Source of the DNA: Clostridiaceae bacterium
GTDB taxonomy: Bacteria > Bacillota > Clostridia > DSM-8532
Direction of reading: 5' to 3'
Length of the DNA stretch: 45,487 nt
Assembly (NCBI GenBank): GCA_012840245.1
Contig: DULR01000094.1
Span: forward strand, 1 to 45,487
A program made the position numbers and the translations under genes. A model generated the notes under the pieces. It did not search any database. It saw only the letters and a list, made by a program, of their open reading frames with translations, and had not been told where the DNA came from. The stretch's first letter is position 1; the number at the start of each line of letters is the position of its first letter. Below, one piece after another: positions 3,873 to 36,128 of the stretch.

Positions 3873-4358
3873 CTACGGTACTGCTTTCCCATTATTGATC
3901 TTTATACCCTCAATGGCAAGCAGCCGCATCTTTATTTCCAGACCGCCGCCATATCCAACCAGATGACCTTTGGATCCGATGACACGGTGGCATGGAATAA
4001 TTATGGCAACCGGATTTCTGTTGTTGGCCATCCCAACGGCACGGCAGGCCTTCGCTTTCCCAATCTGGACCGCTATATCTTTATAGCTTCTTGTTTCCCC
4101 ATAGGGAATAGTTCTGAGTGCTTCCCAGACCAGTTTCTGAAATTCGGTACCTTTTGTGGAAACCGGAAGATCAAAGACTTTTCGTTTGCCTTTGAAATAT
4201 TCATCCAACTGCCGCTTAGCTTCCTTAATAATATCTGTTTCATTTATGGCAGCTTCAGGCAGCTTCGCTTCCCCGAAAAACAAATCGGTAACGGCCCCGT
4301 TTTCTTCTCCGATGCCTATTTTCCCTATCTCGGTCTCATAATAATATAGATTTTTCAA
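3873..4358 (-). CDS. ogt: Methylated-DNA--protein-cysteine methyltransferase
   Basis: This is a suicide DNA repair protein that moves the alkyl group of O6-methylguanine onto its own cysteine. The active-site motif IIPCHRVIG is present with the acceptor Cys at about residue 123. The upstream segment YGETRSYKDIA belongs to the DNA-binding helix-turn-helix. I place the start at TTG 4358, giving 161 aa, because a strong AGGAGG lies 6 bases upstream at 4365-4370. An in-frame start at 4406 would add 16 residues of no family character and has no such site. It is a stand-alone gene, without an Ada-type regulatory domain. Confidence 0.93.
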   Translation of the reverse strand: MKNLYYYETEIGKIGIGEENGAVTDLFFGEAKLPEAAINETDIIKEAKRQLDEYFKGKRKVFDLPVSTKGTEFQKLVWEALRTIPYGETRSYKDIAVQIGKAKACRAVGMANNRNPVAIIIPCHRVIGSKGHLVGYGGGLEIKMRLLAIEGIKINNGKAVP

Positions 4359-4600: not shown

Positions 4601-5797
4601 ATGATAAAAAGCGGAGTTACGGCACCTGAGGGGTTCAGGGCATCAGGAGTGGCCTGCGGGCTTAAAAAGAACGGCAACCTGGATCTCGCCATGGTTGTAT
4701 CGGATAAAACCGCAGCAGCCGCAGGCATATTTACTGCCAATGTTGTAAAAGGTCATTCTCTTAAGTGGACCATGGAAAAAGTAAAAAGCGGAGCTGCAAG
4801 AGCAGTGGTCATCAACAGCGGCTGCGCCAATGCATGCCTGGGAGAGCGAGGCGATGCGGACGCTGCATCGATGGCTGCATATGCTTCCGGTTTTATCGGC
4901 TGCGAGCCTGATCTGGTATTGCTGGGCTCGACCGGTGTAATAGGCTTCCCTCTTGATATGAAAAAAATAAAAGCCGGCATCAGGAAGGCTTATGATTCTT
5001 TGTCTTATGAAGGAGGAAGCCTGGCCTCAAAGGCGATAATGACTACCGACACCTACCCGAAGGAAGCTGCCGGAACCTTCATGATCGGAGACAAGACAGT
5101 AACAATAGGTGGAATGGCCAAGGGCTCAGGTATGATCCATCCCAATATGGCGACCATGATTTCGGTGATCACGACCGATATCGCCATAAACCCGGAGCTT
5201 TTGAAAAAAGCCCTTAAGACCGCCGCTGACAGCTCCTTCAACAGGATCTCCGTCGACGGTGATACAAGTGTTTGTGACAAGGTCATTATCCTGGCGAACG
5301 GAATGGCCGGGAATACTGTTATAGATAAAGAGGGACCGGAATACGATGCATTCCTGTCGGTTTTGCTCGAAGTTTCGGAATCGCTCGCCAAAATGCTTGC
5401 CAAAGACGGCGAGGGGGCGACCAAGCTTGTTGAGATCCGTGTCAAAAATTGCAGCGACAGAGAATCCGCTCATCTTATCCTCAATGCGATTGCGAAATCA
5501 CCTTTGGTAAAAACAGCCATATTCGGTCAGGATGCCAATTGGGGCAGAATTTTCACTGCGGCAGGATATTCTGGTGCTAAATTCGATCCCGATAAAGTCG
5601 ATATTTTCATAGGAGATCTGTTGGTGTGCAGAAACGGCACCGGACTATGCTTTGATGAGGATAAAGCCGCTGAACTGCTGAAAAAGGATGAAGTAGTCAT
5701 AACCCTGGACTTCAAAGACGGCAGCATCGATGACAGAATATGGACATGCGACTTTTCCTATGATTATGTGAGGATAAACGGTTCATACAGGAGCTGA
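4601..5797 (+). CDS. argJ: Glutamate N-acetyltransferase / ornithine acetyltransferase ArgJ
   Basis: ArgJ recycles the acetyl group between N-acetylornithine and glutamate in arginine synthesis. Some ArgJ enzymes also use acetyl-CoA. The 398-residue length is normal. The self-cleavage site is visible in HPNMATM, where Thr185 would become the N-terminal nucleophile of the beta chain after cleavage of the Ala184-Thr185 bond. The start ATG 4601 follows a GGAGGG site. It is unusual in standing alone: no argB, argC, argD or argF is next to it, and its plus-strand neighbour is cheW, 70 bases downstream. Whether it is mono- or bifunctional cannot be decided from sequence alone. Confidence 0.95.
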   Translation: MIKSGVTAPEGFRASGVACGLKKNGNLDLAMVVSDKTAAAAGIFTANVVKGHSLKWTMEKVKSGAARAVVINSGCANACLGERGDADAASMAAYASGFIGCEPDLVLLGSTGVIGFPLDMKKIKAGIRKAYDSLSYEGGSLASKAIMTTDTYPKEAAGTFMIGDKTVTIGGMAKGSGMIHPNMATMISVITTDIAINPELLKKALKTAADSSFNRISVDGDTSVCDKVIILANGMAGNTVIDKEGPEYDAFLSVLLEVSESLAKMLAKDGEGATKLVEIRVKNCSDRESAHLILNAIAKSPLVKTAIFGQDANWGRIFTAAGYSGAKFDPDKVDIFIGDLLVCRNGTGLCFDEDKAAELLKKDEVVITLDFKDGSIDDRIWTCDFSYDYVRINGSYRS

Positions 5798-12476: not shown

Positions 12477-12555
12477 ACTTCACCTCATTCTCTTAGATTT
12501 TACCATGTTAGCGGCCAAAATAAACACAAATATCTGTTATTCAACCTGCAAAAAT

Positions 12556-12814
12556 GGGCTGTCATAAAATATTAACTTCGCCATGCTGTTCAGATCTTCC
12601 AGCTGTCCTCGTCGCAGGAAGTTGTAAATGCTCAAGTTTGCTCTCGCGAGGTCGCTGGCAATCGCGCCGTCCGGGCGCGTGCCGGTTAAAATCTGCGTCC
12701 GGCAGATTTTACCTCACTCGAGCTGCACTGTTAACATTACAACATTCAGCTGCTCCTGCGGAGGCAGTTCATCTCTGAACAATATGCCTTAGAACAAGCT
12801 TTTTAAGACAGCCC
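12556..12814. repeat. Palindromic repeat, copy A (with nested palindrome)
   Basis: The element has terminal inverted repeats GGGCTGTC (12556-12563) and GACAGCCC (12807-12814), and its arms fold on each other over much of their length. The left arm shares a long similar stretch with copies B (14676) and C (28388), including GCTGTTCAGATCTTCC. Unlike copy B, the loop holds an extra 123-base palindrome (12621-12743) with its own ends GTTGTAAATG and CATTACAAC and a 10-bp inner hairpin TAAAATCTGC/GCAGATTTTA. It lies between the last importer permease gene and glgA, where it may also act as a terminator. Confidence 0.75.
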
Positions 12815-12847
12815 CTGGCAATCCTTAACGCTCGAATATGATCAGAT

Positions 12848-13702
12848 TCATCCCTTGAGAGCGCCTGCTGTAAGTCCCTTGATAAATTGCTTGCTCATAA
12901 AGATATAAAGCAGTATGACCGGCAGCGCGGACAGGCTCAATACTGCCAGGACCATGGACCAGTCGGTCTGGTATTGGCCGAACAGACGCGTCACACCTAA
13001 CAGCAGGGTTTTCTGATTCTCCTCACTGATCATAATAAGCGGGAACCACAGATCGTTCCAGAAAGGAACAAGGTTGTATATGGCCACAGTGGCCAGCGCA
13101 GGGCGCATCATGGGCATTACCACTCTGACAAGGATCTTCAGCCTGCCTGCTCCATCCACATGGGCCGCTTCCATCAATTCCTTCGGGAACTGGCGCATAT
13201 ACTCAGTAAGAACGAATACTGCTATCGGCAGCCCCATCGCTGTATAGATGGGCAAAAGCGACCAGATGGTATTTATGAGCTTTATACTCTTCATTATCCC
13301 AAGCAGTCTGATGGAGGCTATTCTTATTGGCAGCATCATTCCGGCGATAAAAATGAAATATAAAATATTAGGGATCGACCCCTTCCAGTTTGCAAGCGCA
13401 TAGGCAACCAATGAGCCCAGGACCAGCACTATGAAAATGGACAAAAATACGACCAGGAAACTGTTCCTGAAATAGACCAGATAATTCCCTTCCTTTAAAA
13501 CATTCGTATAATTTTTGAAATTCCACTTTTCCGGAAGCCAGAAGGGATTTTTATATATGCTAAGCCGGTCCTTAAAGGAGTTTATGAACATCACCCACAA
13601 CGGGAAAATCACTATGGCCGACCAGACGAACAAAATAAGGCTGGATGCGATCCCGGCTTTTTTCCCGAACAATCTCGATTTTTTTCTTCTCACAGAATCC
13701 AT
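12848..13702 (-). CDS. Carbohydrate ABC transporter permease, MalG type
   Basis: This 284-residue inner-membrane permease belongs to the CUT1 (MalG-like) class, with about six hydrophobic segments. The cytoplasmic EAA loop that docks the ATPase reads EAAHVDGAG at about 178-186. Its ribosome binding site AAGGAG lies in the last codons of the upstream permease gene, 6 bases away, so the two are translationally coupled. With the MalF-type permease and lipoprotein it forms an importer. No ATPase gene is present, which is common for clostridial CUT1 systems that share an MsmX-like ATPase. The substrate is probably an oligosaccharide or a glycan fragment. Confidence 0.93.
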   Translation of the reverse strand: MDSVRRKKSRLFGKKAGIASSLILFVWSAIVIFPLWVMFINSFKDRLSIYKNPFWLPEKWNFKNYTNVLKEGNYLVYFRNSFLVVFLSIFIVLVLGSLVAYALANWKGSIPNILYFIFIAGMMLPIRIASIRLLGIMKSIKLINTIWSLLPIYTAMGLPIAVFVLTEYMRQFPKELMEAAHVDGAGRLKILVRVVMPMMRPALATVAIYNLVPFWNDLWFPLIMISEENQKTLLLGVTRLFGQYQTDWSMVLAVLSLSALPVILLYIFMSKQFIKGLTAGALKG

Positions 13703-13708
13703 ATCGCA

Positions 13709-14626
13709 TTACTCCTTCGTCCTTGTTTTCAGCAGTACCGGAATAACGCCTGCAATGAGCATCAGGAAGGTAATGGTGGCGATCGCCGCACCTAATCCGG
13801 GGTTAGGTATCCCTATGGGATGCTGTCCCGCGATCCCGACTCTGTAGAACAGGGTCCCAAGTATGTCTGTCGAATATCCCGGAGCTCCGTTTGCCGTTTC
13901 CATTGCAAACACAACATCGAACGCGTTGAAATTGTTGACGAATGTAAGTATGGCAACTATTCCGACTACGGGCTTTATAAGTGGAAGCTGAATACGCCAG
14001 AATACCTGCCATCTGTTAGCTCCCTCAATATTTGCCGCCTCAAAGATATCCTCGCTTATATTGCGCAGCGCAGCAACGAACATCATCATGGGGATCCCTA
14101 CCCACTGCCAGCAGGATACAAGTGATACTGCGGTAAGGGCAGTGGATTCCTTGCCCAGCCATGGCTGCGCAAGTGCCGAAAGACCTATGGCATCAAGAAG
14201 ATTCTTTGACCAGACAGGATTTAGGATGAGCTTCCACAGATAACCTGTAACCAAAATAGCAAGTGTTGTAGGAATGAAGATTATAGTCTGGTAAATGCTG
14301 TTCCGCCTTTCCTTCCCTCTTTGTGTCAAAAGCACTGCAAATATGATCCCCAGTACGTTTTGAACCAGCATATGATATAAAAAGAAAACAACGGTGTTTA
14401 ATAAGGCATTGACATAACGTGTCGAGACTTCGGAATCAAAAAATATCTTCCGGAAATTTTCAAGACCCACGAATGTCATATTGCTGTATGTGCCGGAATA
14501 CATGCTAAGTCTAATTGAATCCAGAAGAGGATAAGCCATGAAAAATATGTACACCAATAGTGCAGGTATTGTATATAAAAACCAGTAAAAGCCGCGGGGC
14601 TCCAGTCTGTTGTAAGAACTATGCAT
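13709..14626 (-). CDS. Carbohydrate ABC transporter permease, MalF/UgpA type
   Basis: This 305-residue CUT1 permease pairs with the downstream MalG-type protein. The N-terminus (YWFLYTIPALLVYIFFMAYP region) is typical of MalF/UgpA homologues in Gram-positive bacteria, and the EAA loop reads EAANIEGAN. Six hydrophobic segments are apparent. The start ATG 14626 has a GAGGTGAG site about 13 bases away, somewhat distant. It is separated from the lipoprotein gene by 181 bases that contain palindromic repeat copy B, so expression of the permeases relative to the binding protein may be uneven. Confidence 0.93.
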   Translation of the reverse strand: MHSSYNRLEPRGFYWFLYTIPALLVYIFFMAYPLLDSIRLSMYSGTYSNMTFVGLENFRKIFFDSEVSTRYVNALLNTVVFFLYHMLVQNVLGIIFAVLLTQRGKERRNSIYQTIIFIPTTLAILVTGYLWKLILNPVWSKNLLDAIGLSALAQPWLGKESTALTAVSLVSCWQWVGIPMMMFVAALRNISEDIFEAANIEGANRWQVFWRIQLPLIKPVVGIVAILTFVNNFNAFDVVFAMETANGAPGYSTDILGTLFYRVGIAGQHPIGIPNPGLGAAIATITFLMLIAGVIPVLLKTRTKE

Positions 14627-14675
14627 TATATGAATCTCACCTCACTTGAAGAAAAAAAACCTTCGCAGAAAAGCA

Positions 14676-14807
14676 GGGCTGTCTCATAATACTATTATTG
14701 GCATGCTTATCAGATCTTCTTGCTGTCATCTTCGCATATCCTGCGGAAGGCTGCTCAGCTCTGATAAGCATGCCTTAGACATACCTTTAAGACATTATTT
14801 GTGAGAC
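14676..14807. repeat. Palindromic repeat, copy B, inside the sugar importer operon
   Basis: The left end GGGCTGTCTCATAAT (14676-14690) and the arm reading GCATGCTTATCAGATCTTCT match copies A and C. The right arm (about 14761-14807) reads back as its inverse (CTGATAAGCATGCC, then GTGAGAC), giving a hairpin of about 130 bases. It begins right after the stop codon of the lipoprotein gene. The transcript would carry a strong stem-loop between the binding protein and the permeases, a classic place for mRNA stabilisation and stoichiometry control. Confidence 0.75.
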
Positions 14808-16109
14808 TTACTGCCTGCTGTTATTCACGTTATCAGCAGCCTGCTGAGGTGAAATATCACCTTTTATGACACTTATGACTGCCTGATCCATTGGTGTATA
14901 CAGATCCATAAGAGCAGGCCATACAAATCTCGCATCTGTCTTCCTTCCATTGTTCAGTGCAAGGAACTCATTTGCGTGAACATCTTCAAGAGTTATCTGG
15001 AACTTGATCATTGGGAAGAATCCGGTGGGCAGGCTTGCAGAAGCTTTCTTTACGCCTTCTTCGGTGCAGAGCCATGCAAGGAAATCCATAGCTTCCTTCT
15101 TGTACTTGGATGCGTTATTATATGTGATTGCCATGTCAGGATGGAATGTGATGAGAGTTTCTTTGCCTGCTCTGGCCGGTATAGCGAAAACGCCCCAGTT
15201 AAAGTCTACATCATCATACACGCTGATGGTCCACGAACCGTCAACGAACATGGCAGCTCCCTGGGAACTGAACAGAGCCTGGCTGTCGTTATATGTAACA
15301 GCTTCGAAGCCGGAAGGCAGGTAAGGCTTTATACTTGCTATGTCAGTGTAGGCATCGACAAAATTCTGGTCGTTGAGAGCTTTGGTTCCGTTTTCATAGA
15401 GGACACGCTGGTCAGCTCCCCCAACATAATTGGGAAGCATTCCAAGGAAGAAGCATTCAAGGATATCCCACTCATCGGCAAGGCCGTTGGCCAGCGGCGT
15501 GTAGCCTTTGCTTTTCAGTGTTTCGCAGACCTGTATGAATTCTTCCCAGGTTTTCGGTATGCTCACACCGGCAGCATCAAAAATATCCTTATTGTAGTAT
15601 ACGGCATGTGAAACTGCTGCGAATGGAACTGCGAACATCTTCCCGTCGGGTGTTCTCCAGGGTGCAAGATTCGAATCGGAGAAGTTATCCAAAATGCCGG
15701 GTATATTTGTGCAATCTCCAAAATAACCGGCTTCAAAAAGCTCAAGACCTGTTGCATATGAACGGGCATACATAAGATCCGGACCTGTTCCGTTTTCAAG
15801 CTGCAGGCGCAGTGTTGCATTATAATCGGGAGGATTGGTGGGTTGGAATACGATCTCGACATTTGGCGCTACCTCTGCAGTATATTGCGCCAGAAGCTTA
15901 TCCATCTGTGCCTTGTCGTCGGCTCTCCAGGAACCCATGGTAAGTACGACCTTTTCATCGGCTTTGGGCGTATCCGGCTGGTTTGGCGCAACTGAAGTGG
16001 TATCAGGCTTGATCGTGTTCTCGCCTTGTGTCTGTGTTTGACCGCATGATGTCAAAAGAGGTACTGCAAGCAGCAAAATCAGTATCCAGGATAGCAAGCG
16101 TCTCTTCAT
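14808..16109 (-). CDS. Sugar-binding lipoprotein of CUT1 ABC importer (SBP_bac_1)
   Basis: This 433-residue extracellular solute-binding lipoprotein has a lipobox LTSC with Cys22 as the lipidated residue, followed by a flexible Gln/Thr-rich linker. The body fits the family-1 binding proteins of oligosaccharide importers (segments such as MAVPFAAVSHAVYYNKDIFD and FQPTNPPDY). It heads the minus-strand operon, with an AAGGAGG site 9 bases before ATG 16109. It is divergent from a second sugar-binding lipoprotein linked to a two-component system, which probably controls this operon. The substrate cannot be named from the sequence. Confidence 0.93.
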   Translation of the reverse strand: MKRRLLSWILILLLAVPLLTSCGQTQTQGENTIKPDTTSVAPNQPDTPKADEKVVLTMGSWRADDKAQMDKLLAQYTAEVAPNVEIVFQPTNPPDYNATLRLQLENGTGPDLMYARSYATGLELFEAGYFGDCTNIPGILDNFSDSNLAPWRTPDGKMFAVPFAAVSHAVYYNKDIFDAAGVSIPKTWEEFIQVCETLKSKGYTPLANGLADEWDILECFFLGMLPNYVGGADQRVLYENGTKALNDQNFVDAYTDIASIKPYLPSGFEAVTYNDSQALFSSQGAAMFVDGSWTISVYDDVDFNWGVFAIPARAGKETLITFHPDMAITYNNASKYKKEAMDFLAWLCTEEGVKKASASLPTGFFPMIKFQITLEDVHANEFLALNNGRKTDARFVWPALMDLYTPMDQAVISVIKGDISPQQAADNVNNSRQ

Positions 16110-16381
16110 TGAATATTTCCTCCTTGTTTTTAATTTTTTGCAAGTAAAATTCTAATAAGGAGGATCATTTTTTAGAATGAACATTCTATCGCAAACCTTG
16201 CATTTTCTTATGAAACACTTCGGAATAAGATGATATGATTTCTGATATCATTACAATGACCGGGTATATTAAATGATTTTCTTTTACAGTTACAGTAAAT
16301 ATATATTATAATATTTATAAATTGGGTATAACCGTTAAGTCCTTGTATAATGACCCAATATGAGTTTGGGAGTGAGGAATA
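16110..16381. promoter_or_regulatory. Divergent control region between importer and sensor genes
   Basis: This 272-base AT-rich region holds the ribosome binding site of the leftward lipoprotein gene and several dyads that could be operators. These are ATGATAT/ATATCAT at 16230-16236 and 16245-16251, and TTTAC/GTAAA at 16283-16287 and 16295-16299. A rightward promoter candidate is annotated separately. The AraC-type response regulator encoded downstream is a natural candidate to bind here, but no site is proven. Confidence 0.5.
16321..16359 (+). promoter_or_regulatory. Promoter candidate for the sensor operon, flanked by an inverted repeat
   Basis: A perfect -10 TATAAT at 16346-16351 is preceded at 18 bases by a weak -35 TTGGGT (16322-16327). 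The whole promoter is enclosed by the 7-bp inverted repeat ATTGGGT (16321-16327) and ACCCAAT (16353-16359). A weak -35 and a flanking dyad suggest regulation. Confidence 0.55.
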
Positions 16382-17470
16382 ATGACTGTTCGCAGGTTCC
16401 CGTTGATAGCCATATTGTTGCTCTCCGTTACGCTTGTACTTTCCGGTTGCACTTCTGCTGAAACCAACGACTTATCCGATCCTGACAACCTGACTCAGTG
16501 GGGATTTTCTGAACACTCAACAGACAAAAAAATCACCATCGGTCTTGCCCTTGGAACACTGAAGGAAGAAAGATGGGCCAATGAAAGAATGTTTTTCGAG
16601 GAAGAAGCAAAGAAAAAAGGCGCGCTGGTGATAACAGAAGATGCCAATATGGATGAGGAAAGGCAAAAAGAACAGATCAGAAGCCTGATAGAAAAGCAGG
16701 TGGATGTCCTCGTCATTGTGGCGGTAAACGAAAAAACAGCGGCCGAAAGTGTCGCCGAAGCAAAAAAAGCCGGTATCCCGGTTCTTGCTTATTCACGTAT
16801 GATACAGAATGCCGACCTGGATGCTTTTATAGGATTTGATGCAGTAAAAATAGGTGAGACTCTTGCTAAAGCAGCAACAGAAAATGTTCCGAAGGGAAAT
16901 TACATGATAATAAACGGTGCCCCCATCGATAACAATGCAAAGCAGCAGAAAATAGGATATAACAATATTCTGGGAACGCTTGCAGACAGGGGCGATATCT
17001 CCATAATATGTGAAGGCTGGTGTGAAAACTGGTCGCCTGAAAAGGCATATGAATTGACAAAGGCAGCGCTGGACGACAACGGAAGCAGGATCGATGCAAT
17101 CATCGCATCCAACGACGGAATGGCGGGAGGCGCTATACGAGCTCTTGAAGAATATGGTCTGGAAGGCAGTGTTTTCGTCACCGGTACCGACGGTGAGCTG
17201 GCTGCTCTGAGAAGGATAGCAAAAGGCACACAATCTGTGACGCTTCTTTTCCCGCAGAAGGAATTCGCCGAGGAAGGGGCACGGGCTGCCATAAGCCTTG
17301 CCAACAAAATGATCCCTGCCGACGCTACAGGGAAAACCAATAACGGATTTGGCGATATCCCCACGATATTTGCAAGATTCGTTCTGGTTACCAGGGACAA
17401 CATAGACAAAGTCATATCGGAACAGGGCCTGTACAATCGTGAAGAAATATATCAGGAACCCGGCAAATAA
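16382..17470 (+). CDS. Xylose-binding-protein-like lipoprotein, probable sugar sensor
   Basis: This 362-residue lipoprotein has a lipobox LSGC with Cys23 lipidated. It belongs to the periplasmic-binding-protein type I fold (RbsB/XylF group). Segments resembling D-xylose-binding proteins are VLAYSRMIQNADLDAFIGFD, the NGAPIDNNA stretch, IASNDGMAGGAIRAL and a TGTDGELAALRRI segment. It is followed 20 bases later by a YesM-type kinase and a YesN-type regulator rather than by transporter genes. By analogy with the XylFII-LytS-YesN type three-component systems of clostridia, it probably presents bound sugar to the kinase rather than to a permease. Ligand and mechanism are inferred. ATG 16382 follows a GTGAGG site. 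Confidence 0.9.
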   Translation: MTVRRFPLIAILLLSVTLVLSGCTSAETNDLSDPDNLTQWGFSEHSTDKKITIGLALGTLKEERWANERMFFEEEAKKKGALVITEDANMDEERQKEQIRSLIEKQVDVLVIVAVNEKTAAESVAEAKKAGIPVLAYSRMIQNADLDAFIGFDAVKIGETLAKAATENVPKGNYMIINGAPIDNNAKQQKIGYNNILGTLADRGDISIICEGWCENWSPEKAYELTKAALDDNGSRIDAIIASNDGMAGGAIRALEEYGLEGSVFVTGTDGELAALRRIAKGTQSVTLLFPQKEFAEEGARAAISLANKMIPADATGKTNNGFGDIPTIFARFVLVTRDNIDKVISEQGLYNREEIYQEPGK

Positions 17471-17490
17471 TCATTATTTCAGAGGTAATG

Positions 17491-19326
17491 ATGAAAAAAC
17501 CGACTACACCCATAAAGCAGCCATTTGAAAAAATAAAAGTCCTGATAATGAACCAGGGCATAAGATTCAGGCTTGGGCTTTTTTTTCTGCTTGTATCATT
17601 GCTCCCTCTCCTGGCTCTCGGTTTTTTCTCCTACTATAAGTCTTCCAGCACAATAAAGGAAGTCACAACCCGCTATTCGAGCGAAATAATCAATGAGATC
17701 TACAACAACCTGATGCTTAAGTTCGATAATATAAACAATATCGGAAAGGTCCTTCTCAACAGCAATACGGTCAAGGAGATACTCTCCCGGCGCGGGAGCG
17801 ATGCCGACAGTTATTTCAGCCAGGATAATGATAAGATGGAGCTTTTGCTTGAAACCATCAGAGACAGCAATGAAAACATACGAAGCACCTATATCCTATC
17901 CCATATGAACGACAATATATTTGCCGTAGGCGATATCACTGAAGAACGGGGCCTTGTTTTCCTCAATGAACAGTACCGCAGGAATTACAAGTCCTCAGCC
18001 TTATATCAGGAAACCATAGATTCGGAAAGCAATTACATCTGGTGGCCTACACAGTACGTGCTGGGCAATCCTGTTTTCATACTATCTGAAAAGCTGCGCG
18101 ACCATGACGATACTGTCCTGGGTGTACTTGTGATCCATGTTGGCGTTGAAATCATGGACGAAATATATAACAGCATCAAAACCAACCACAATTCTCTGAT
18201 GTATTTGATGGACGGCAGCGGCAGGATCCTCTTTCACCCCGATAAAAACATTATAGGCCAGCATTTCGTAAACAAGGATATTATAGAAACAATACAGATG
18301 TCTCAGGAAGGCAGCTTCATACATAAGGAAAAGGGCAAGGAAATGTTTGTCGTATTCAATACCTTTCCGGTTACCCAATGGAAGTTCATTGTGGTCACAG
18401 CCTACAATCAGCTGATATCCGATTCTGTCAGGATCCGTGATATGACTCTGCTCATTTCCGCCGCCTGCATCTTTTTTATACTGCTGGCATCGCTGGTTCT
18501 GACCAGGAGCATGGCCAAACCCCTATACAAGCTCATGGAACTGATGGAAAAAGGAGCCCGGGGAGATATCAAGGTACGATTCAATGTCAGGTACAATGAT
18601 GAAATCGGACAGTTGGGCAACTCCTTCAACATGATGATGGCAAATATAGAGCAGCTGATCCAGCTTGCAGAAACAGAGAGCAGGCAGCGGGTCGAAGCCG
18701 AGATCAAATCCATGGAAGCCCATATAAATCCGCACTTTTTATACAATACTCTGGCCTCGATATACTGGAGCGCCATGGCTAAGGGAAACCATGAGATCGG
18801 CAAAATGGCCGCTTCACTTTCGAGATTTTTCAAGCTCGGACTAAATAAGGGTAAGGAATACACAACCGTCAAAAAAGAGGTCGAGCATGTCAAGGAATAT
18901 CTGACAATTCAAAAGATGCTCTATAAAAACCTCTTTGACTATGAGATAAATGTTGATCAGGAGATCCTGAACCATAAAACCATAAAGCTTATCCTCCAGC
19001 CTTTGGCCGAAAACTCCATAGTGCACGGGTTCGGTAATATGACCGGGGACGGGTTCATCAGGGTCGATGTTTTCAGGCGGGACGATCGCATAGTGTTCAG
19101 GGTGACCGACAATGGAGCGGGAATAAAAGGCTTCGGACAGAAAAGCACTGATGACATCATAGGCTGCGGTTATGGCCTGAAAAACATTCGAGAGCGCCTG
19201 CGCCTTTATTTCAATAACGACTATACCATTGAGTGCAGCAGTTCCGATACAGAAACGACTTTCGAAGTTACCATTCCGGCGATAAAGGAGGCCGAAAAAT
19301 ATGTACAAGCTCCTGATAATAGATGA
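17491..19326 (+). CDS. YesM-type sensor histidine kinase (Cache-HAMP-His_kinase)
   Basis: This membrane kinase is about 611 residues long. A first membrane segment (about 29-50) and a second (about 320-339) enclose a 270-residue extracellular domain of the double-Cache type. A HAMP region (about 340-392) leads to the His_kinase box INPHFLYNTL (phospho-accepting His near residue 416) and a HATPase domain with LILQPLAENSIVHGF and DNGAGI motifs. This is the YesM/LytS class that pairs with AraC-type regulators. I prefer the second of two adjacent ATGs (17491), because the AGAGGT site is too close to 17488. The last 26 bases overlap the regulator gene. Confidence 0.94.
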   Translation: MKKPTTPIKQPFEKIKVLIMNQGIRFRLGLFFLLVSLLPLLALGFFSYYKSSSTIKEVTTRYSSEIINEIYNNLMLKFDNINNIGKVLLNSNTVKEILSRRGSDADSYFSQDNDKMELLLETIRDSNENIRSTYILSHMNDNIFAVGDITEERGLVFLNEQYRRNYKSSALYQETIDSESNYIWWPTQYVLGNPVFILSEKLRDHDDTVLGVLVIHVGVEIMDEIYNSIKTNHNSLMYLMDGSGRILFHPDKNIIGQHFVNKDIIETIQMSQEGSFIHKEKGKEMFVVFNTFPVTQWKFIVVTAYNQLISDSVRIRDMTLLISAACIFFILLASLVLTRSMAKPLYKLMELMEKGARGDIKVRFNVRYNDEIGQLGNSFNMMMANIEQLIQLAETESRQRVEAEIKSMEAHINPHFLYNTLASIYWSAMAKGNHEIGKMAASLSRFFKLGLNKGKEYTTVKKEVEHVKEYLTIQKMLYKNLFDYEINVDQEILNHKTIKLILQPLAENSIVHGFGNMTGDGFIRVDVFRRDDRIVFRVTDNGAGIKGFGQKSTDDIIGCGYGLKNIRERLRLYFNNDYTIECSSSDTETTFEVTIPAIKEAEKYVQAPDNR

Positions 19327-20920
19327 CGACGAGCTTATTCGCGAAGGTATAAAAAACGCCATCGAATGGGACCAGCAAGGTATTTCCGAAGTAAAAACAG
19401 CCGACAACGGAGAATCGGGCTGGCAGATTTTTCAGGAATTCGAACCAGACATAATCCTGACTGATATCAGAATGCCCGTTATGGACGGCATAGATCTGCT
19501 GAAAAGGATCAGACAAGTCCGGAAAAATGCAAAAGTAATAATCCTGAGCGGCTATGATGATTTCAGCTATGCCCAGACGGCTGTAAAAGAAGGTGCCTTC
19601 GATTACCTGCTTAAAACCGCCGATATAGATGAACTGCTCAATGTTATAAGTAAAGCGAAGGCTGAACTGGACAGAGAAAAGCATGAAGCTGAAACATACA
19701 GGAAGCTTAAGGAGCAGCTCAATATGAGCCTTCCTCTCCTGAAATACAGATATCTGAACGAACTGATATATGGCTGTACCGATATAAACCAGCTTATAAA
19801 ACGAATGGAGTTCGTTGACATACATATAAAGAGCGACTGTTTCATGGTCGCAGTACTGGTCATCGACGACTTCGATCTGCGGTTGGATGAGATAACCGAA
19901 GAGGAACGCCTGCTTTATAAACTCAAGATAATCAATATCATGGAGGAATACTCAAAGGATGACGGTATCTGCTTCGAAAGCAAAAATGAAGAATTTATTT
20001 ATCTTTACATGTGCAATAATGATCTGAGCATAAGGGAAAACAAAGAGATACTTTGCAGCAGGTGCGAGGAAATATGCCGAACACTGGGCAGGATCATGGA
20101 TTTCAAATTCAGTGTAGGCTTAAGCAATATCGGTTACGGACTGGATTCTGTGAGAAATTGCTTTTCGGAAGCGAAAAAAGCACTGGATCACAGACTCTTT
20201 TATGTTGACAGCATTGTAGACATTCAGGATATAAACCCTTACACATCTGCCAGCTTCAATCTGGACTTTGAAACTGAGAACAGGCTGATATCGGCCCTGC
20301 GGGTCGGAAACAAAAATGAAGCTCTGGGCATTATTGAGGATATATTCAGCAGGATGCGCCATAACAGAAATCTTGAAATAGGCAACTTCCATCAGGTGTG
20401 CATCGAGCTTCTGAGCATAGCATCACGAGTTTTATGCGAATTCGATGCCGGGATGGATAATGTGTTCGGCAAGGATTTCCTGTACTTTGAAGAGATAAGG
20501 AAATATAAAAGCTCTGAGGACGCCATAAAATGGATGGTCGATATCTTCAACACCCTGCTGAATTACATACTCAATACCAAAATACTCAAGGCAAAAAAAA
20601 TAGTTGAAACTGTCAAGCGGTATATCGACGAGCATTATAATGAAAACCTCTCACTTAACATGCTCGCCGACATGGTGCATATAAGCCCGAACTACTTCAG
20701 CTATCTGTTCAGCAATACTGTTGGGCAGAGCTTTATGGAGTATGTGATGACAAAAAGGATCGAAAAGGCAAAGCAATTGCTGGGGGATACCGATTCCAGG
20801 GCATGCGAAGTCGGCGAAAAGGTTGGGTATGATAACCCGAATTATTTCAGCCGCATATTCAAAAAATACACCGGTCTGTCCCCTTCACAGTATAAAGAGA
20901 GTTTAAAATCGAACGAATAG
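19301..20920 (+). CDS. YesN-type response regulator with AraC DNA-binding domain
   Basis: This 539-residue cytoplasmic regulator starts with a receiver domain, in which Asp55 in ILTDIRMP is the phosphorylation site and DDD at 8-10 supplies the acidic pocket. A central region of about 300 residues, typical of YesN proteins, follows. The protein ends in an AraC/XylS double helix-turn-helix (about 435-535), ending GYDNPNYFSRIFKKYTGLSP. An AAGGAGG site lies 9 bases before ATG 19301, inside the kinase gene, so the pair is translationally coupled. Its likely target is the divergent importer operon. A terminator follows the gene. Confidence 0.95.
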   Translation: MYKLLIIDDDELIREGIKNAIEWDQQGISEVKTADNGESGWQIFQEFEPDIILTDIRMPVMDGIDLLKRIRQVRKNAKVIILSGYDDFSYAQTAVKEGAFDYLLKTADIDELLNVISKAKAELDREKHEAETYRKLKEQLNMSLPLLKYRYLNELIYGCTDINQLIKRMEFVDIHIKSDCFMVAVLVIDDFDLRLDEITEEERLLYKLKIINIMEEYSKDDGICFESKNEEFIYLYMCNNDLSIRENKEILCSRCEEICRTLGRIMDFKFSVGLSNIGYGLDSVRNCFSEAKKALDHRLFYVDSIVDIQDINPYTSASFNLDFETENRLISALRVGNKNEALGIIEDIFSRMRHNRNLEIGNFHQVCIELLSIASRVLCEFDAGMDNVFGKDFLYFEEIRKYKSSEDAIKWMVDIFNTLLNYILNTKILKAKKIVETVKRYIDEHYNENLSLNMLADMVHISPNYFSYLFSNTVGQSFMEYVMTKRIEKAKQLLGDTDSRACEVGEKVGYDNPNYFSRIFKKYTGLSPSQYKESLKSNE

Positions 20921-20944: not shown

Positions 20945-20976
20945 CAAAAAGCCCATCTTCTCAGATGAGCTTTTTT
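20945..20976 (+). terminator. Rho-independent terminator of the sensor operon
   Basis: A hairpin of the arms around 20947-20958 and 20963-20973 (AAAGC-CATCT pairing with AGATG-AGCTTT, with one mismatch) is followed by a run of six T. It lies 25 bases after the response regulator stop. Confidence 0.75.
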
Positions 20977-21020: not shown

Positions 21021-21125
21021 AAGATTCTTCAGTCGCTTTGCTCCCTCAGAATGACAGTGAAGGTTCGCTAAGAATATCAATGCAGCGTCGCTCAGAATGA
21101 CAATAAAAATTTGCTCAAAATGACC
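21021..21125. repeat. ATTCTGA-type interspersed repeat, degenerate half copies
   Basis: Three successive degraded copies of the half-unit GCTCAGAATGAC end at about 21055, 21101 and 21124. The first is preceded by AGATTCTTCAGTCGC. The unit matches the inverted repeats at 28295 and 36041. It sits between the convergent regulator and pnp genes. Confidence 0.65.
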
Positions 21126-28234: not shown

Positions 28235-28294
28235 ATAAAACTCAAAACACTTTCTGGTGCCTGTAGAGTGAGTCAACTGCCCGATGACCTAAAT

Positions 28295-28371
28295 GTCATT
28301 CTGAGGAGCAAAGCGACGAAGAATCTTTATATTCAGATCCTTCGATTCCGCTGCGCTTCGCTCAGGATGAC
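28295..28371. repeat. ATTCTGA-type inverted repeat, full copy
   Basis: The unit begins GTCATTCTGAGGAGC and ends GCTTCGCTCAGGATGAC, an imperfect inverted repeat of 77 bases with AAGCGACGAAGAATCT in the left arm. Repeats of this kind are widespread and multicopy in Clostridia and some other phyla. Two further relatives lie in this window (21021-21125 and 36041-36091). Confidence 0.8.
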
Positions 28372-28387
28372 ACGGGTTTTGCGCTGA

Positions 28388-28458
28388 AGATAGCATTCAG
28401 ATCACTGACAGCAGGAAGATCTGAACAGCATGGCAACAATATTATTTTAAGACAGCCC
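28388..28458. repeat. Palindromic repeat, copy C (shortened)
   Basis: On the minus strand it starts GGGCTGTCTTAAAATA and continues through GCCATGCTGTTCAGATCTTCC, closely matching copy A. The far side keeps only a GATCTGAATGC return arm, so the hairpin is about 45 bases, and the other terminal repeat is missing. It therefore looks like a truncated member of the family. Confidence 0.7.
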
Positions 28459-28603
28459 CTTGGGAAAAGTTTGAGCGACCCGTCAGAAAAAGATCACACT
28501 TCGGGACATGACAGAGCGAAAGCGGAGGAATGTCACATCATAGAGGTAATGGATCATATTGACACAGGTGCTTAAAGGCGAACTGAGCAAGATCCTTGCA
28601 ACC

Positions 28604-35970: not shown

Positions 35971-36040
35971 ATGGCTGATAACCTCCGGGTTTTCAACTGC
36001 TGTATTCTATCTGCCTTGCTTATGCCAATAAACAAACATT

Positions 36041-36091
36041 GTCATTCTGAAGAAGCAGCTTATTTATCGGCTCCTTTTCATTCAGAATGAC
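36041..36091. repeat. ATTCTGA-type inverted repeat, short copy
   Basis: The unit begins GTCATTCTGAAGAAGC and ends TTCATTCAGAATGAC, 51 bases, and is related to the repeats at 21021 and 28295. It lies between the citrate synthase stop and the PHP gene, and its hairpin might help end the citrate synthase transcript. Confidence 0.7.
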
Positions 36092-36128
36092 AACTGTTTA
36101 TATCAGTGATTCAAACTACATGGCCAGT

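Follow-up and report, generated by a model that had tools for sequence, protein, structure and literature searches.

An inserted cassette joins a XylF-derived lipoprotein, a dCache kinase and a CUT1 sugar importer in a Clostridiaceae genome

Three-component sugar systems encoded beside importers with two permeases and no ATPase gene of their own are already known. In Ruminiclostridium cellulolyticum (PMC10384115), an operon for a solute-binding protein (SBP), a kinase and a YesN regulator (CuaDSR) has as neighbours the genes for another SBP and for two permeases (cuaABC-cbpA); the ATPase is encoded elsewhere, one SBP senses and the other imports, the two differ in ligand range, and the sensor operon is constitutive. 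The XylFII-LytS-YesN system of Clostridium beijerinckii, associated with xylFGH, similarly combines a monosaccharide-class sensor SBP, a YesM/LytS-type kinase, a YesN regulator and an importer target, the LytS sensor being a four-helix bundle (PMC9769921). Here we compare with these systems a locus of related layout on a 45,487-nucleotide stretch from a Clostridiaceae bacterium (contig DULR01000094.1 of assembly GCA_012840245.1, positions 1 to 45,487 of the forward strand; "the window" hereafter denotes this whole stretch), in which an operon for a XylF-derived lipoprotein, a histidine kinase and a response regulator is divergent from a CUT1 importer.

Our preferred reading, which we consider probable as a whole, is that six genes inserted between pnp and glgA act as one sensing and import cassette. 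The sensor operon would be made from its own consensus-like promoter, and its lipoprotein, outside the cell, would bind a monosaccharide-sized ligand and dock on a dCache kinase. This kinase would phosphorylate the YesN-type regulator, which would then bind a direct repeat at 16178-16215 and activate (rather than repress) the divergent promoter of the CUT1 importer; the importer, finally, may borrow the MalK/MsmX-type ATPase of the genome. The genes are as follows (L127 being the locus of the importer's closest relative).

12848-13702, minus strand: CUT1 permease, MalG-like (BPD_transp_1; 56% identity to the L127 homologue)
13709-14626, minus strand: CUT1 permease, MalF-like (BPD_transp_1; 57% identity to the L127 homologue)
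14808-16109, minus strand: the importer's solute-binding lipoprotein, of family 1 (CUT1) (SBP_bac_8/SBP_bac_1; lipobox-like LLTSCG)
16382-17470, plus strand: XylF-derived sensor lipoprotein (Peripla_BP_4; lipobox-like LVLSGC; closest fold XylF 3m9w; placed by tree)
17488-19326, plus strand: YesM-type histidine kinase with dCache sensor (dCache_1, HAMP, His_kinase, HATPase_c)
19301-20920, plus strand: YesN-type response regulator (Response_reg receiver and AraC-type helix-turn-helix, HTH)

A preliminary description of this region had read it as a sensor operon divergent from an importer lacking an ATPase, with one lipoprotein in the sensing operon, another in the importing operon, and the two belonging to different classes. 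All of this holds: the open reading frames (ORFs) and families of the sensor operon (16382-20920) and importer (12848-16109) were confirmed, and the sensor is of the monosaccharide, CUT2-type class as against the CUT1 SBP of the importer, although both permease genes fall outside the range given at the time (14808-20920). The lipoprotein, kinase and regulator genes lie in one operon, as in an SBP-dependent three-component system, with 17 bp between the XylF and kinase genes and a 26-bp overlap of the kinase and regulator ORFs, and the control region between the divergent operons spans 272 bp (16110-16381). No ATPase gene stands beside the CUT1 SBP and its two permeases; the genome, which has 13 His_kinase matches, contains a single OB_MalK ATPase match, a 370-amino-acid MalK/MsmX-type protein encoded elsewhere (L049:5289-6401), so that on the simplest reading this importer would share an ATPase, which is an ordinary situation. 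Importers without their own ATPase that are served by a multitask ATPase have been described (PMC7658222).

The closest relative of the importer, at L127 (48-57% identity across the importer proteins, 48-49% for the SBP), has no three-component system beside it; its SBP was matched at an E-value of 1e-50 or better in 3 of 391 genomes of the class, the window genome included, and the other 31 genomes of the family held no close relative (best 29%). An iterated SBP1 profile drifted into the other SBP family, and the CUT1-permease profile was the one used. Guesses at the substrate from importer relatives were set aside: the neighbours of L127 were uninformative, and a further locus (L128, 33-34%; PIG-L, Gfo/Idh/MocA and GH88-like neighbours) was too distant to be used.

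The kinase carries a dCache_1 domain (score 59.0, cut-off 45), and its predicted model, of middling confidence overall (mean pLDDT 72.7, pTM 0.45) and better in the sensor part, matches dCache structures; GanS (6swj/6swk) is the only solved kinase with a sequence match to it. Orthologous kinase-regulator pairs occur at two other loci. The first, L071, belongs to a Clostridia metagenome-assembled genome and is the single relative among 28 pattern-matching stretches of a genome-contig database; its three-component operon (identities to the window: XylF 63%, kinase 59%, regulator 58%) lies downstream of xylF-xylG-xylH, a CUT2 importer. The second, L237, is the locus of a genome (G748) recovered by a phylum-wide kinase search that matched 2 of 398 genomes, the window genome included, at an E-value of 1e-82 or better. 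Here the order is kinase-regulator pair (51% and 40%), FAD oxidoreductase, CUT1 SBP and two permeases; besides the FAD oxidoreductase, the neighbours are a GntR-type regulator and a transketolase encoded by split genes, and no substrate follows from these. A class-wide kinase search returned 5 of 391 genomes, namely the window genome and four others at 31%. The HTH parts of the regulators are alike: the window is identical at 74/111 aligned positions to L071 and at 62/103 to L237. The CUT1 importers of the window and L237 are not close (23% identity for the SBP, 27-30% for the permeases), which suggests that importers were probably exchanged more than once.

The evidence that connects regulator and importer lies in the control region, where the preliminary description had expected a regulator site within 16110-16381. 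A candidate was found there, facing the importer: a 21-bp-spaced direct repeat (16178-16215) that abuts a weak -35 element, an arrangement known from AraC-type activators.

16149-16154, minus strand: candidate -10 element of the importer promoter (TAGAAT; 39 bp upstream of the importer ATG)
16172-16177, minus strand: candidate weak -35 element TTCTAA of the importer promoter, directly after half-site 2
16178-16194, minus strand: candidate operator half-site 2 (13/17 to consensus)
16199-16215, minus strand: candidate operator half-site 1 (14/17 to consensus; 21 bp from half-site 2)
16283-16312, plus strand: sensor-operon promoter, consensus-like TTTACA-18-TATAAT (11/12 matches)

A common 67-bp arrangement was found in four places: in the window, upstream of the L237 CUT1 SBP gene, and twice before xylFGH of L071. 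Its geometry is 17-4-17-6-17-6, that is, half-site, spacer, half-site (21 bp start to start), a hexamer in the -35 place that begins TTC, 17 bp, and a -10 element that is TATAAT or a near match. It emerged only once the L237 orthologue was added, when the control region was compared on both strands with five upstream regions and matched the region before the L237 CUT1 SBP over 41 bp (score 19, reached by 0 of 100 shuffles). The test that we count as independent was a scan of 15 kb of L071 with a model that drew on no sites but those of the window and L237. Its two best matches, at 4682 (28.5) and 4038 (19.2), both lie upstream of xylFGH with the same geometry; the third match scored 11.1 and the best of 200 shuffled L071 sequences 18.9, so the weaker site is only narrowly above the best shuffle. 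Elsewhere, the same model reached at most 15.9 across 254 other loci (2.27 Mb). Leave-one-out scans ranked the window site best of 45 kb (23.1, against 8.4 for the next match and 15.0 for the highest of 60 shuffles) and the L237 site at 35.7 (next 14.5), these two being less independent because the sites were partly picked by their mutual likeness. Overall, the recurrence of the arrangement before importers beside orthologous kinase-regulator pairs gives the predicted regulator-importer link good support at the sequence level, and on the same evidence the importer class varies between lineages with the candidate switch retained (CUT1 in the window and L237, CUT2 in L071).

Each of the two relatives has two copies. 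The second and weaker one of L237 (11303-11369) sits where the regulator gene ends, close ahead of the gene for the FAD oxidoreductase, and in L071 the two copies are carried by a 45-bp direct repeat (4037-4081 and 4681-4725, 76% identity, ~640 bp apart). An exact 11-mer common to the window and L071, GATATGATTTC, was set aside as an operator since by eye it falls within an apparent terminator hairpin in L071. No operator was found at the sensor-operon promoter, where autoregulation was looked for, and towards the importer the control region has no promoter of at least 9/12 matches. A consensus-like promoter for the sensor operon and none of that quality for the importer would fit a constitutive sensor operon and an activator-dependent importer.

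Several observations weigh against our preferred reading. The window control region compared with L071 alone gave nothing clear of chance, and the match to L237 is one of ten results, five regions having been compared on both strands. The module is known from three loci only. An orthologous sensor operon is present in L071, so chance does not account for the layout; the pairing of SBP and importer found in the window has no counterpart at any other locus seen. Finally, there is no XylF gene within 40 kb in L237, so the kinase-regulator pair, with its candidate operator, does not appear to depend on the lipoprotein.

This last point opens the possibility that the true sensor is the dCache domain of the kinase, alone or together with the SBP of the importer, and that the XylF lipoprotein tunes the response or is a leftover. 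Besides L237, where orthologues of the dCache kinase and regulator occur with the operator and a CUT1 importer and with no XylF in 40 kb, the behavior of CuaSR points this way, since without CuaD it still responds to cellobiose, if less well; yet the purified outer part of CuaS bound no tested sugar (both PMC10384115). In the window and in L071 alike, the operon moreover still opens with the XylF gene, which in the window ends 17 bp short of the kinase gene. We regard a sensing dCache domain as unlikely, if worth keeping in mind, and a sensing lipoprotein remains the preferred reading.

What kind of lipoprotein this is can be stated more firmly. Against the XylF model TIGR02634 it scores 295.6 bits, under the 389.55 cut-off, which places it in the same superfamily and not as an equivalog. 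Its best solved relatives are XylF structures (4ywh, 251 bits; 3m9w, 248 bits), and the closest solved fold to its predicted model is the open E. coli XylF 3m9w (Z 41.5; 305 residues superposed at rmsd 1.4). A tree was built from 52 rows, of which 50 are XylFs and 2 form the outgroup; there its sister is the L071 XylF linked to the kinase (100/99), and the sister of this pair is the L071 XylF linked to the permease (100/100). They stand apart from 32 XylFs whose genes come after a YesN gene. By its sequence affinities, the sensor lipoprotein is of XylF origin.

Ser138 and Phe290 occur in three XylFs, that of the window and both of L071, whereas the other 47 all have Asp at 138 (47/47) and Lys or Arg at 290 (47/47; 46 and 1). 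By alignment to E. coli XylF, we take Asp138 and Lys290 to be xylose contacts. With two positions conserved in all other XylFs changed, xylose is doubtful as the ligand, and the sensor lipoprotein likely binds something else.

These affinities bear on the kinship that the preliminary description had drawn with XylFII-LytS-YesN, which did not survive. An ordinary member of that family would share the order of functions and a monosaccharide-class sensor SBP, as the window does. However, the window genome, like many relatives, carries a separate canonical locus (L048, 4848-14235; SBP, LytS-like kinase, YesN, XylF, ChvE-like SBP, XylG, XylH), and the window lipoprotein is a XylF proper, with 40% identity to the L048 XylF and 21% to the L048 upstream SBP. 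With PDB match lists and the L048 SBP as stand-in for the XylFII lineage, the XylFII structures 5xss, 5xsj and 5xsd match the latter at 73-74 bits and are not among the best 60 of 71 structure matches of the window lipoprotein. The kinase is of dCache type rather than four-helix, the candidate operator is absent from L048, and the adjoining operator-bearing importer is CUT1 and not CUT2. Membership in the XylFII-LytS-YesN family thus seems very improbable.

Alternatively, the lipoprotein could be a transport SBP for a distant CUT2 permease, the main client of the system, with adjacency to CUT1 being an accident of insertion. Its sisterhood to a permease-linked XylF would suit such a role, as would the XylGH-type genes of the window genome at L048, L050 and L051; still, the candidate operator stands before the CUT1 importer, its model scores at background (7.7 or less) at these three loci as well as at L049, and the transporter at L048 comes with SBPs and a LytS-YesN-type pair of its own. 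We consider this quite improbable, and retain the lipoprotein as the likely sensor for the divergent CUT1 importer.

Canonical loci such as L048 have two transport-type SBPs (XylF and ChvE-like) before XylG/XylH in addition to the sensor SBP, and the window genome has a further SBP-kinase-regulator operon at L050 (7245-16455), with a CUT2 importer of two permease genes. More broadly, 69 SBP4-kinase pairs were counted in 66 of 111 loci, a sample biased towards CUT2 because these loci were picked around XylF/Peripla_BP_4 matches: CUT2 genes lie no more than 9 kb from 56 of them, 12 have no importer seen (several at contig ends), and two have CUT1 permeases, namely the window and L079, the latter also with CUT2. 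L079 (5397-19501) is a cluster with both importer classes, in which a canonical SBP-LytS-YesN-xylFGH block leads directly into genes for a CUT1 SBP, for two permeases and for a further YesM-YesN pair.

The cassette is an insertion between pnp and glgA, as judged from the adjacency of these genes in relatives, the alignment of flanks and a mobile-element-like repeat at its edge. Among 11 same-genus loci fetched around glgA (two further same-genus genomes had no glgA match at threshold), pnp directly adjoins glgA in 8 (L153, L154, L155, L156, L158, L159, L161 and L162); another ORF lies between them in L157, and L138 and L160 are cut off or ambiguous at the contig start. In another genus (L163), the order is pnp, one 263-amino-acid ORF, glgA. 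The flanks of the nearest relative align to the window until ~12540 and again from ~21155.

12549-12816, strand not assigned: repeat of ~260 bp resembling a miniature inverted-repeat transposable element (MITE), at the glgA-side cassette edge; 31 matches in the genome including itself
20946-20975, strand not assigned: hairpin resembling a terminator, in the gap that separates the regulator gene from pnp

The MITE-like element has a short further match at 28407-28461. Clustered CGCTCAGAATGACA-type repeats occur at 21043-21125, 28294-28372 and 36040-36092 (15 matches with at most 3 mismatches, 4.2 expected), and a similar stretch is present in the empty pnp-glgA site of one genome (G004). The cassette genes bear no compositional sign of recent transfer, their GC (0.422-0.477) falling inside the span of the adjoining genes or only slightly off it. 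No close relative of the sensor XylF is present in the other 31 genomes of the family (best 42% or less), 1039 of 72,556 plasmid records match XylF with none at 60% or more, and the viral contigs gave no XylF match.

Taken further, these observations would fit a portable module in which the kinase, the regulator and a geometrically fixed operator-promoter are kept, the importer is exchangeable, and the sensor derives from a duplicated transport XylF. The window sensor might then keep the ligand of a lost CUT2 importer and govern an unrelated CUT1 importer, so that cue and cargo would be different sugars; we offer this tentatively, as a real possibility that falls somewhat short of our expectation. 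One switch and kinase-regulator pair before two unrelated importer classes makes a case for studying how bacterial sugar sensing is rewired, and the locus allows asking if the sensed sugar tracks the lipoprotein of the sensor operon and the cargo tracks the permease. For annotation, a XylF-like protein beside a YesM-YesN pair is not proof of xylose sensing or of a XylFII mechanism, and the candidate operator motif can be used to find regulons of this regulator family.

How does the locus then stand among described systems? XylFII-LytS-YesN differs in the lineage of its SBP, the four-helix sensor of LytS and its CUT2 target. AraPST with araEGH of Geobacillus stearothermophilus presumably combines a PF13407-type sensor SBP, a kinase and an AraC-type regulator with a CUT2 target; AraP (6sw4) is of another SBP lineage, with 17% identity to the window lipoprotein model. 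For mixed sensor and importer classes, the nearest precedent is GanPSR with ganEFG of the same species, where a monosaccharide-binding sensor lipoprotein, GanP, governs a CUT1 importer without its own ATPase; GanP is a glucose/galactose-type SBP and not a XylF. In PMC4194401, which names the AraPST cluster, XynDC with xynEFG of Geobacillus is, like the window, a kinase-regulator pair beside a CUT1 importer and, unlike it, has no separate sensor SBP. CuaD is a 410-residue cellobiose-binding protein, about the length of a CUT1 SBP, as against the XylF sensor of the window, and the paper on it names no domain for the outer part of CuaS (PMC10384115). In the open-access literature, outside which most subscription papers lie, we found no description of a XylF-lineage sensor on a dCache kinase, nor of a conserved operator common to CUT1 and CUT2 importers. 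The overall design is thus a known one, of which the combination in the window is an unusual variant.

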